From positions 1 to 37,314 of the IMG/VR virus record IMGVR_UViG_3300037493_001584: 37,314 bases of DNA. One strand, given 5' to 3'. The first letter of the stretch is position 1; the number at the start of each line of letters is the position of its first letter. The notes below the pieces were generated by a model. The model saw nothing but the letters and a program-made list of their open reading frames with translations, ran no database searches and was not told the origin of the DNA. Positions 12,009 to 15,556 of the stretch are shown here, in pieces. The position numbers and the translations under genes were made by a program. This DNA is from a virus.

Positions 12009-12323
12009 TCAGGTGCTGGAGTCAGGGCAGGCGCTGGCGGTTTCGATTGCTGTGGCGATGGCACGCGACTGACGGGCCAGGTCGCTCATCAGCTCGCGGT
12101 CCAGCGGTAGGGATTCATCCCAGGCGTTATCAGCAACGGCCTGTGCGACCTGCTGCGTGGCATCAATCAGCCCCACCAGCAGCGGCAGGATTGGGTTGTT
12201 GCGGCGGCCGGAGTCGGGCAGCGTGATCAGCCGATTAACGTCGGCGGGGATGGCCTGCCGCGCTGCTTGGAGGATCAGGTCAGACAGTGCGCCATCGCAC
12301 TCAAGGCGGGCAGTGCTGTTCAT
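12009..12323 (-). CDS. Hypothetical helical protein
   Basis: This 104-residue protein is not recognised. It is mostly helical (ALSDLILQAARQAI, ILPLLVGLIDATQQVAQAVAD), with a C-terminal helix (MSDLARQSRAIATAIE). It overlaps the Gp157-like gene by four bases (ATGA) and follows it on the same transcript. It may be an accessory to that protein, but only the coupling supports this. Confidence 0.65.
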   Translation of the reverse strand: MNSTARLECDGALSDLILQAARQAIPADVNRLITLPDSGRRNNPILPLLVGLIDATQQVAQAVADNAWDESLPLDRELMSDLARQSRAIATAIETASACPDSST

Positions 12324-12862
12324 TTAATGCTCCAGCTACGACGCTCGACTAATGCGGCACCTTCAATCTGCGCACCACCTTTGAGTGCTGCGGCTAGCGC
12401 GGTCTTGTCGGCGGTGATGGTGGTCTTCACCCGCTGGAACTGCTCGGGCAGAGTCCACGCCGAACAGGCAAGATCAACAGCGGTTGACTTCCTGCTGGTG
12501 ATCTTGTGCTCTGGCAGCTCCCAGCTCGTCTCATCAGGTGCTACCTTCTGGAGCGCTGCAATCAGCCGCTCCTGCAATGCGTCGGCCTGCTGCTCAGCGC
12601 TGGTGGCTAAGTCCTTGAGGCGCTGAGCGTGAGCGGCCCGGGCAGCGGACTGGGCACGCATGTGATCGATCACCCAGCACCAGGCGTCGGCCTTGGATTC
12701 CAGCGCTTGGCGGTTGCCTGATTCAAAGGCGATCAGCGCTTCGAGCTTTGCGGTGGCTTCGGCAGCTTCCCCTAGGTCATCGCTGAAGAGGAGCTCAGCT
12801 GATTCGTTGATCTGTCGTTGAAGGTGCAGGGCTTCGCCAGTGAGGTCGAAGAGGGTGGCCAT
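12320..12862 (-). CDS. Siphovirus Gp157-like protein
   Basis: This 180-residue protein matches the Gp157 family of phage early proteins. It has an N-terminal helix (LFDLTGEALHLQRQINE), a long coiled-coil region (about 55-115) with WCWVIDHMRAQ, and the C-terminal beta pattern typical of the family: LPEHKITSRKSTAVDL, a PEQFQRVKT segment and IEGAALVERRSWSIK. The family was first noted in streptococcal phages for a link to phage resistance; its molecular role is unclear, and it usually lies near SSB/RecT-like genes. Here it heads a minus-strand unit diverging from the sigma factor, with copy B of the shared promoter element between them. Confidence 0.85.
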   Translation of the reverse strand: MATLFDLTGEALHLQRQINESAELLFSDDLGEAAEATAKLEALIAFESGNRQALESKADAWCWVIDHMRAQSAARAAHAQRLKDLATSAEQQADALQERLIAALQKVAPDETSWELPEHKITSRKSTAVDLACSAWTLPEQFQRVKTTITADKTALAAALKGGAQIEGAALVERRSWSIK

Positions 12863-12950: not shown

Positions 12951-13901
12951 GTGGCCGCGAGCTGGTGGCTAGACACGATTGGCCGAATACCGCTGCTCAC
13001 CCCTGCTGAGGAGATTGAGCTGGGCACGATCATCCAGCGTTGGCAGCAGCACCCTGAGCCGTGCCCGCCAGGTATCAGGCGCCGTGGGATGCGGGCCCGT
13101 GATCGTTTTGTGCAGGCCAACCTGCGGCTGGCGGTTTCGTATGTGTCCAAGCGCTGCTTCCGGTTGGCCAAGGCGCACGCGCAGGAAGACCTGATCCAGG
13201 CCGCCAACATGGGCCTGATCACTGCTGCTGAGCGCTTCGATCCAGCCCGCGGCTACAGGTTCAGCACCTATGCCTACTGGTGGATTCGCCAGGCCGTCAG
13301 CCGCTGGGCTGATCAGCATTCCCGCCTGATCTCCATTCCCGGCAGCCACTGCCAACACCTAGGCCGCATCGGGCCGATCACCAGGCGCCTCAAGCAGGAG
13401 CTGAACCGCACTCCCACCCGCGAAGAGATTGCCATCGAGCTGGGCGTATCAATGCAGGTGCTGGAGCAGGTGATTGAAAACGGCCGCAGCATCTCCAGCC
13501 TCGACCAGATCATCACCGACGACGGCCTGGAGCTGGGCTCCACCTGCGCATCGTTCGACCGGAGCATTGAGGATGAGGAAGAACAGCGCGAGCGATGGCG
13601 CCATGCTGAGCTGTTGCGCAACATGATCGCCCGGCTGCCGGTGTCAGATCAGCGGCTGCTGGTGATGGCCTGGGGCCTTGATGGCGTCGAGATGCCACGC
13701 CCTGAGCTGGCCCAGCAGGAAGGGCTTAGCATTCGGGCGCTGGAGTCACGCCTAGAGCGCCTCCAGTCGTCACTAGCATCGCACTCGGTGCAGCTGGTGC
13801 TGGTGGCAGTGTGCAGGGTGCGGCCCTCGCCACGACCAAAGCAGCGGCGGCACAGGCGTGAGGTGATTGGGGTGCAGTTAGTGCTGGTGGTGGCGCCGTG
13901 A
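12951..13901 (+). CDS. RNA polymerase sigma-70 family factor (cyanobacterial group 2-like)
   Basis: This 316-residue protein would direct host RNA polymerase to phage promoters. Region 1.2 is short (IGRIPLLTPAEEIELG, about 10-25). Region 2 spans about 54-125, with ANLRLAVSYVSKR, DLIQAANMGLITAAERFDP and the -10 recognition helix YRFSTYAYWWIRQAV. Region 3 follows at about 136-190 (RRLKQELNRTPTREEIA, ISSLDQIITDDG). Region 4 has a helix-turn-helix (PELAQQEGLSIRALESRLERL, about 250-271). The PLLTPAEEIELG and SSLDQ motifs are typical of cyanobacterial sigma factors, so it was probably captured from a host. The region 4 segment is weaker than usual, so -35 recognition may be altered; the candidate target promoters also lack a good -35. 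About 35 C-terminal residues after region 4 are basic and unrelated. GTG start 12951, four-base overlap with the methylase gene. Confidence 0.9.
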   Translation: MAASWWLDTIGRIPLLTPAEEIELGTIIQRWQQHPEPCPPGIRRRGMRARDRFVQANLRLAVSYVSKRCFRLAKAHAQEDLIQAANMGLITAAERFDPARGYRFSTYAYWWIRQAVSRWADQHSRLISIPGSHCQHLGRIGPITRRLKQELNRTPTREEIAIELGVSMQVLEQVIENGRSISSLDQIITDDGLELGSTCASFDRSIEDEEEQRERWRHAELLRNMIARLPVSDQRLLVMAWGLDGVEMPRPELAQQEGLSIRALESRLERLQSSLASHSVQLVLVAVCRVRPSPRPKQRRHRREVIGVQLVLVVAP

Positions 13902-14833
13902 CTCTGCGCATGATCGACACTTTCAGCGGCATCGGCGGCTTCTCCCTAGCTGCTCGCTGGCTTGGCGGAATTGAGACGGTTCAGTTCGTCGAGCGTGACC
14001 CTTACTGCCAGCAAGTGCTGGCGAAGCATTGGCCCACTGTTCCTATTCACGATGACATCTGCACCTTCCAACCTGAGCCCGGATCAGCTGACATTATTTG
14101 CGGTGGATTTCCCTGCCAGGACATCAGCCAAGCCGGAAAGGGTGCCGGCCTGGCTGGCAGCCGATCGGGCCTGTTCTACGAATTGCTCAGAGTCGTTCGC
14201 CTGGTGGGACCGCGCTACATCGTCCTGGAGAACGTCGCAGCGATCACTCACCGAGGAATGGACACCGTTCTTGGAGCGCTGGCCGAGGCAGGGTATGACG
14301 CGGAATGGGCGTGCATACCGGCAGCGGCTGTGGGTGCCTGCCATCAGCGTGACAGGTGGTGGTGCGTTGCCTACGCCACGGGCACAGGAGCCAGGAAGGA
14401 CGAACCACGGATACGGGGACAGCGTGACCGAAAGGATCTGCTTGGAGATGGGCATACCGACGCAGAAGTATCCAAGCCAACTGCCCACCCCACGCACATG
14501 CTCAGCCATGGCGGCGCCGGTCGACAGCAGGGGCAACCTGGAGGGCAAGCGCTTCCCAAATCTGGAGACGGTGATCGGGCGGCAACTCCTGACCCCATGC
14601 GCCAACGACTGGAAGGGCCGGACGAACTGGGAAGCAGCGGAGCGCCATGGCCCTCAGCGATTGCCCGACTGTCTCCCGACTGGCGCAGCTACCTATCTGA
14701 GCCCGTCCTTTGTCGAGGAGATGATGGGCTTTCCGGTCGGGTGGACCGTCTTAAAGCCCTAGGCAATGCCGTGGTGCCTCAGGTGGCGATGATCCCGCTG
14801 GCAAGGGTGCTGGAGCTGGCCGATTATCAATGA
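13898..14833 (+). CDS. C5-cytosine DNA methyltransferase
   Basis: This 311-residue enzyme would methylate cytosines, probably to shield phage DNA from host restriction. Motif I is DTFSGIGGFSLA (7-18). Motif IV GGFPCQDIS has catalytic Cys73. Motif VI is ENV (111-113), motif VIII is QRDRWW (150-155), and motif X is LKALGNAVVPQVA near the C-terminus. The target-recognition part (about 160-260) is Gly/Arg-rich and low in complexity, unlike a normal folded recognition domain. The same DNA carries a long +1 frame that looks more protein-like there (14052-14762). GTG start 13898 overlaps the sigma gene by four bases. No cognate restriction enzyme is seen, so it is an orphan methylase. Confidence 0.92.
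   Translation: MTLRMIDTFSGIGGFSLAARWLGGIETVQFVERDPYCQQVLAKHWPTVPIHDDICTFQPEPGSADIICGGFPCQDISQAGKGAGLAGSRSGLFYELLRVVRLVGPRYIVLENVAAITHRGMDTVLGALAEAGYDAEWACIPAAAVGACHQRDRWWCVAYATGTGARKDEPRIRGQRDRKDLLGDGHTDAEVSKPTAHPTHMLSHGGAGRQQGQPGGQALPKSGDGDRAATPDPMRQRLEGPDELGSSGAPWPSAIARLSPDWRSYLSEPVLCRGDDGLSGRVDRLKALGNAVVPQVAMIPLARVLELADYQ
14052..14762 (+). CDS. Overlapping +1-frame gene inside the methylase gene (PTP/MGFP-type phage protein)
   Basis: A 236-residue frame starts at ATG 14052, wholly inside the methylase gene and shifted by +1. It is open further upstream, to 13962. Its product has features I recall from a phage protein family usually found beside or within cytosine methylase genes: SPDQLTLF near the start, SSWRTSQRSL, WPRQGMTRNGRAYR, repeated LPTP segments, LTPCANDWKG and a C-terminal LSPSFVEEMMGFPVGWT. 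The bases that encode MGFPVGWT also encode the methylase segment DDGLSGRVDRL in the other frame, so both signatures share the same DNA. Long shadow frames do occur in this GC-rich window, so length alone proves nothing; the motifs are the argument. Function unknown. Confidence 0.5.
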   Translation: MTSAPSNLSPDQLTLFAVDFPARTSAKPERVPAWLAADRACSTNCSESFAWWDRATSSWRTSQRSLTEEWTPFLERWPRQGMTRNGRAYRQRLWVPAISVTGGGALPTPRAQEPGRTNHGYGDSVTERICLEMGIPTQKYPSQLPTPRTCSAMAAPVDSRGNLEGKRFPNLETVIGRQLLTPCANDWKGRTNWEAAERHGPQRLPDCLPTGAATYLSPSFVEEMMGFPVGWTVLKP

Positions 14834-15253: not shown

Positions 15254-15556
15254 CTAGCTGATCCACCTGCTAATCCGCGCTTCACGCTCAATGCAGTGCC
15301 ACTCCTGAGCAGCAAACCAGTGACGCCAATCTGCCGACGATTTCGCACCATTGCAGCGCCGGCACGCCGGCACCAAGTTCTCAGCAACCGTCAGGCCGCC
15401 TGATATGCGAGCCACAACATGATCAAGCGTGTCGGCTGATTCGGCGCAGTAGGCGCAGGCGTGGTTCCACTCGGCAAAGATCCTGGCCCTGAATCTAGAT
15501 TTGGTGGTGCGCTTGGGTAGTAGCTCGGTTCCATCAATCTGATGGTCGAAGGCCAT
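15254..15556 (-). CDS. HNH endonuclease
   Basis: This 100-residue protein has the HNH fold signature. CAYC is followed by DTLDHVVARISGG (the His of the first HNH motif), then AENLVPACRRCNGAKSS, with the second CxxC and the Asn. These are the zinc ligands and active-site residues of small phage HNH nucleases. It is the last gene of the late transcript and its ATG directly follows the phosphoesterase stop. In several cos phages a small HNH protein works with terminase in DNA packaging; those genes lie next to the terminase, which this one does not. A free-standing mobile nuclease is the other option. Confidence 0.88.
   Translation of the reverse strand: MAFDHQIDGTELLPKRTTKSRFRARIFAEWNHACAYCAESADTLDHVVARISGGLTVAENLVPACRRCNGAKSSADWRHWFAAQEWHCIEREARISRWIS

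Follow-up and report, generated by a model that had tools for sequence, protein, structure and literature searches.

A methyltransferase gene of a virus that probably encodes the catalytic and recognition chains of one enzyme in two overlapping frames

The analysed DNA (the window), 37,314 bases long, comes from a virus record and includes genes for terminase, portal, major head and tape-measure proteins. One of its genes encodes the large subunit of a C5 cytosine methyltransferase, termed alpha, and starts at a GTG codon that overlaps the stop codon of the upstream sigma-factor open reading frame. The sigma factor, of the sigma-70 type (12951-13901, + strand), lies directly 5' of alpha and contains regions 1.2, 2 and 3, with a weak region 4. 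The methylase region is flanked on the opposite strand by an HNH endonuclease gene (15254-15556, − strand) and, on the other side, by a gene for a Mu Gam-like DNA end-protection protein (12320-12862, − strand). Within alpha, the +1 frame is open from a TTG at 13962 to a stop codon at 14760-14762. It contains a second protein, termed beta. The features of the two chains are as follows.

13898-14833, + strand: alpha, C5 cytosine methyltransferase large subunit, 311 residues (PF00145 and phrog_363 matches; openness in relatives)
13916-13939, + strand: alpha motif I, DTFSGIGG, SAM binding (sequence; conserved in A3)
14052-14762, + strand: beta, +1-frame protein of 236 residues, with a putative target-recognition region and motif IX (phrog_1008; stop suppression; conservation)
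14052-14054, + strand: proposed ATG start of beta (ATG enrichment; no alternative start before QLTLF)
14102-14128, + strand: alpha motif IV, GGFPCQDIS, with the catalytic Cys codon at 14114-14116 (sequence; P72 and C73 invariant)
14223-14240, + strand: beta SWRTSQ, +1 over motif VI (Q conserved beyond the expectation from alpha; hairpin predicted)
14228-14236, + strand: alpha motif VI, ENV (E111, N112 and V113 invariant)
14280-14309, + strand: beta WPRQGMTRNG, +1 over alpha LAEAGYDAEW (P and G conserved beyond the expectation from alpha)
14342-14374, + strand: alpha motif VIII, HQRDRWWCVAY (H149, R151 and R153 invariant)
14367-14690, + strand: beta putative target-recognition region with LPTP-type repeats (beta-type codon-position signature; between VIII and IX)
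14387-14677, + strand: alpha linker, residues 164-260, predicted disordered and kept open (pLDDT about 38, no secondary structure; stop deficit)
14697-14747, + strand: beta motif-IX-like segment LSPSFVEEMMGFPVGWT (near-invariant in A1; predicted helix, pLDDT about 94; little change at any codon position)
14759-14782, + strand: alpha motif X, LGNAVVPQ (L288, G289 and N290 invariant; ordered helix 294-310)

Alpha matches PF00145 over residues 4-165 (E=4e-37) and phrog_363 (E=1e-76). This single chain holds motifs I, IV (PCQ), VI (ENV), VIII and X of the C5 methyltransferase set (PF00145/TIGR00675); between VIII and X, motif IX and the recognition domain are absent. An earlier note made from the sequence had proposed that a second coding frame shares the methylase gene. 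The interval that it gave for this frame is exact to the base, with the ATG at 14052, and the motifs that it quoted (SSWRTSQ, WPRQGMTRNGRAYR, LPTP and LSPSFVEEMMGFPVGWT) are all found in the +1 product. The phage protein family to which it referred exists, as a database search of the +1 product returned homologues in phrog_1008, labelled 'DNA methyltransferase' (E=4e-25, profile positions 36-279 of 329, most of the family). Beta has no family match in Pfam, NCBIfam or PADLOC. The double coding that had been noticed just before motif X is also present: beta MGFPVGWT (14724-14747) shares its bases with alpha DGLSGRVD. Likewise, the bases of LSPSFVEEMMGFPVGWT encode LSEPVLCRGDDGLSGRVD in alpha, and those of alpha motif IV encode DFPARTS in beta. 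The beta stop codon falls within the first codons of motif X.

Two scans of viral contigs yielded 123 loci. Wherever a locus matched both proteins, the beta match is in +1 relative to that of alpha, and the MGFP of beta is located 12 codons 5' of the LGN of alpha in most loci. Alpha is open throughout in 69 of the 70 distinct full-length single-piece matches, the remaining one (L012) having one stop. As a null for the +1 frame, alpha codons were shuffled among synonymous positions, which preserves the alpha protein and its codon usage. For the window alone, about 0.3% of such shuffles are free of stops in the +1 frame. In the interval from motif IV to motif IX, 7 stops were observed in the +1 frame of 66 relatives for 240 expected, while the third frame of the same 66 loci, used as a control, contained 518 for 555 expected. 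Free +1 stops in relatives, which the earlier note had named as evidence against a second coding frame, are thus almost never there, and few relatives have any after the beta ATG. With a non-redundant set of 31 representatives (less than 90% identity), the counts were 33 stops for 33.9 expected before the beta start, 1 for about 110 from the beta start to motif IX, and 45 for 32 past motif X. The constraint on the +1 frame starts and stops at beta's own ends.

Beta residues are also more conserved than alpha would impose. The Q of RTSQ reaches 0.91 for 0.24 expected from alpha alone, the P of WPR 0.94 for 0.22, and the next G 0.97 for 0.27; as relatedness narrows the amino-acid null, the fair control for these values is the stretch 5' of beta, where the figure is only 0.30 for 0.26 expected.

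The converse null was obtained by shuffling the synonymous codons of beta with the beta protein fixed. In the linkers of 53 loci, preselected for an open alpha (a filter that dropped one of 70) and not including loci where the alpha match is in pieces, several of them frame-broken (e.g. L017, L047), no alpha stop was observed for 130 expected, and 53 of 53 linkers were open for 5.4 expected. The third-frame control gave 189 stops for 180 expected. At L017/L104 and L047, a frame break after motif VIII shifts the second half of alpha to another frame, which may reflect decay, sequencing error or rearrangement. The earlier note had likened the middle of alpha to a low-complexity shadow, a reading that the absence of stops does not support. 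Presumably the middle is kept open so that translation of alpha can continue to motif X. One could argue instead that only beta matters in this region, alpha being functionally over after motif VIII and the openness of its linker incidental. Some relatives indeed end alpha after VIII and have X in beta, and the linker has no predicted structure, but the count of open linkers and the invariance of motif X in the alpha frame make this reading very improbable.

The division of constraint between the frames is apparent from pairwise differences, taken separately for positions 1/2/3 of the alpha codon. Before the beta start these amount to.165/.117/.483 and in the stretch of motifs IV-VIII to.124/.087/.284. 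They then change to.347/.180/.183 in the recognition region and to.078/.023/.124 at motif IX, and are.157/.097/.476 past motif X. The fastest position therefore passes from the alpha third to the alpha first, which is the beta third, over the recognition region, and then back. This shift indicates that alpha leads in the catalytic part and beta in the recognition part, and that both are strict at motif IX. These rates bear out the proposal that, in the middle region, conservation is stronger for the +1 frame than for alpha. Within the overlap, purifying selection acts on alpha and beta alike.

A chance origin of the +1 frame was considered, in which it would be a non-coding shadow held open by GC-richness and the database homologues would be mis-called reading frames. 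Most depositors annotated alpha alone and beta lacks a Pfam family, as would be the case for a shadow. Against this stand the deficit of stops and its coincidence with the limits of beta, the codon-position signature of the middle, which is that of the +1 frame, and the recurrence of the same pattern in Bacteroidota loci of lower-GC type. With so large a deficit, such a signature and such sharp limits, the chance reading is rejected as scarcely credible.

Structure prediction with AlphaFold2 was applied to both chains. For alpha, with a 49-sequence alignment, residues 1-160 form a large domain predicted with confidence, residues 164-260 are without structure, and the motif X helix is ordered. 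The alpha model matches M.HhaI (Foldseek E=8e-15) over 166 alignment columns of the 327-residue chain. As modelled, alpha thus appears to possess the large domain of such enzymes and to lack the small one. Beta alone was poorly predicted (mean pLDDT 57), its best part being the motif IX helix, and comparison of beta alone with solved structures returned chance matches only. The segment LSPSFVEEMMGFPVGWT resembles motif IX (KLHPRECARVMGYP in M.HhaI) and is at the right distance from motif X. By computation, beta has sharp limits and closes with a helix that resembles motif IX, at the place expected for that motif. The equivalent IX-X segment of Gordonia phage Rabbitrun was placed by phmmer on this part of M.HhaI, with a negligible score. 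Among methyltransferases of solved structure, the IX-X profile gave only a weak, non-significant match to plant DRM (E=1.4), and the match of a joined alpha-beta-alpha chain to PF00145 and TIGR00675 was not extended past motif VIII.

The LPTP region of beta is a putative target-recognition domain, as judged from its position between motifs VIII and IX and from its variability. The number of LPTP-type repeats per beta varies from 1 to 5 among relatives. A module LPTPKA.DGERGRDKARARPDT... is found in 13 loci (L005, L006, L008, L009, L016, L018, L028-L030, L035, L037, L098 and L099) and is missing from close relatives of these. It looks as if recognition cassettes had been gained and lost with both frames staying intact.

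The pieces of the enzyme are differently distributed in some phages. The arrangement is nested as in the window in SG4, S-H1, ABMM1 and Diva. In Phanphagia (gp65/gp66), Eesa (39/40) and PrincessTrina (81/82), alpha stops after motif VIII and the later parts, including IX and X, are in the beta frame. In Rabbitrun (L131, 1287-2150), IX-X is in line with alpha, and the +1 frame retains the N-terminal part of beta and the LPTP part; the chain matches phrog_363, phrog_116 and the C-terminal part of phrog_1008. A split of the Rabbitrun type, a third way to divide the enzyme, is also seen in Neville and Trax. Such exchanges of IX and X between chains are readily understood on the view that all the parts come from a single enzyme. 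The Diva beta was deposited as 'g49 internal gene' with the product DNA methyltransferase, whereas alpha alone is annotated in most other records.

These rearrangements bear on the possibility that beta is expressed but has a function of its own, for instance as a regulator or an inhibitor, and is not a methyltransferase subunit. Monomeric C5 methyltransferases have no known equivalent of the N-terminal part of beta (RTSQ, WPR), and no fold is predicted for beta, which would agree with a separate function. However, alpha would otherwise be devoid of motif IX and of the region preceding it, and the same beta C-terminus occurs in line with motif X or with alpha in related phages. A separate function is consequently judged quite unlikely. 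The earlier note, which took beta for a member of a separate phage family, is to be amended in this respect, as beta carries the apparent missing part of the same enzyme, namely the putative recognition region and motif IX.

A scan of genomes with beta found the +1 nesting in Pedobacter, Chitinophaga, Prevotella/Segatella/Hoylesella and Phocaeicola, and also in one Planctomycetota metagenome-assembled genome (MAG) and in Euryarchaeota MAGs. The MAG contigs with the nested pair may be viral. Plasmids gave weak matches only. Nine genome loci could be tested, and no stop was found over 204-408 codons for 3.4-5.3 expected per locus. In Prevotella bivia (L149, 1731-3308), an alpha of 526 residues and an open beta frame of 495 residues overlap nearly end to end. 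The overlaps in the Bacteroidota loci L149 (1731-3308), L148 (2073-3506) and L145 (1977-3308), of about 330-490 codons, are longer than those in phage loci.

Two routes to beta were weighed. Internal initiation at the ATG is favoured but unproven, and the main rival is +1 ribosomal frameshifting from alpha, which would generate a fusion of the alpha N-terminal part to beta with no internal start. An ATG is present at 14052 or within one codon of it in 62 of 69 relatives for 41 expected, and at the beta boundary in 28 of the 31 representatives for 18.2 ± 2.6 expected; where GAC encodes the first Asp of alpha, the ATG is often displaced upstream by one codon. From the unconstrained stretch to the conserved QLTLF there is no further ATG, GTG or TTG. 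About 10% of the relatives lack an ATG at the beta start, as frameshifting would allow. A Shine-Dalgarno sequence was not found at the beta ATG of the window and was found in 2 of 61 relatives, 59 having none, which also speaks for frameshifting. On the other side, starts without such a sequence are common in the window phage, where only 8 of the 27 genes checked have one, and the beta of Diva is preceded, 12 bases upstream, by a strong Shine-Dalgarno-like GGGAGG. Together with the enrichment and displacement of the boundary ATG, this renders frameshifting unlikely.

The explanation that we consider probable is that one stretch of DNA encodes, in two frames, a two-chain C5 methyltransferase with a catalytic alpha and a beta that constitutes the small domain. 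Frame 0 would yield alpha, with SAM binding, the catalytic cysteine and motif X, and with a floppy linker in place of the small domain. Ribosomes that initiate at the internal ATG (14052) would read the +1 frame into beta, which would supply the small domain, comprising target recognition and motif IX. The two chains would assemble into one DNA-methylating enzyme, and methylation would probably protect the phage DNA from host restriction.

It is an even question whether the locus represents an old and widespread double-coding gene, present in phages, Bacteroidota and some archaeal MAGs, in which the recognition subunit of a C5 enzyme was overprinted on the catalytic subunit for some 150-490 codons. 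The N-terminal part of beta would come from the +1 frame of catalytic motifs, cassettes would have been gained and lost, and the overlap would have been resolved in some lineages into separate or in-line chains. To our knowledge, neither cells nor phages often have long same-strand overlaps in which selection on two frames is clear. The dozens of divergent, sharp-edged copies make the trade-off between two frames measurable. Many database 'methylase' genes of phages and bacteria are probably annotated with half the enzyme missing, so that their activity and target sequence are not testable from the annotated chain alone.

The two window proteins belong to phrog_363 (alpha) and phrog_1008 (beta), phrog_116 being a longer methyltransferase chain; the entries seen for phrog_363 and phrog_1008 both read 'DNA methyltransferase' and mention neither overlap nor joint action. 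No paper on the nested arrangement in phages was found in the open literature. A close deposited counterpart is that of Paenibacillus phage Diva, whose gp49 and gp50 are nested in +1 as in the window and listed as two DNA methyltransferase products. Compared with the window, Diva has a greater distance between IX and X, a beta start displaced downstream by about nine codons, and a Shine-Dalgarno-like sequence. The small chain of M.EcoHK31I, too, is reportedly encoded within its large gene in another reading frame.

Natural split C5 methyltransferases with two chains are already known, namely M.EcoHK31I and M.AquI (PMC3404938). M.AquI (CYCGRG) is split between motifs VIII and IX, its small chain comprising the distal recognition part, IX and X (PMC3404938). 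The window is unlike it, as motif X is in alpha, whereas Phanphagia, Eesa and PrincessTrina, with IX and X in beta, have an M.AquI-like arrangement. The large chain of M.EcoHK31I (YGGCCR) comprises motifs I-VIII and X with a predicted recognition domain, and the small chain carries motif IX (PMC3404938). The window has the same distribution of motifs, with a IX-like segment in beta, but places the putative recognition region in beta instead of the large chain, a distinction drawn from the published description of M.EcoHK31I. The arrangement of the window also extends across many phages, Bacteroidota and some archaeal MAGs. With its putative recognition region in beta, the window pair would be a variant of the M.EcoHK31I type and not a strict member.
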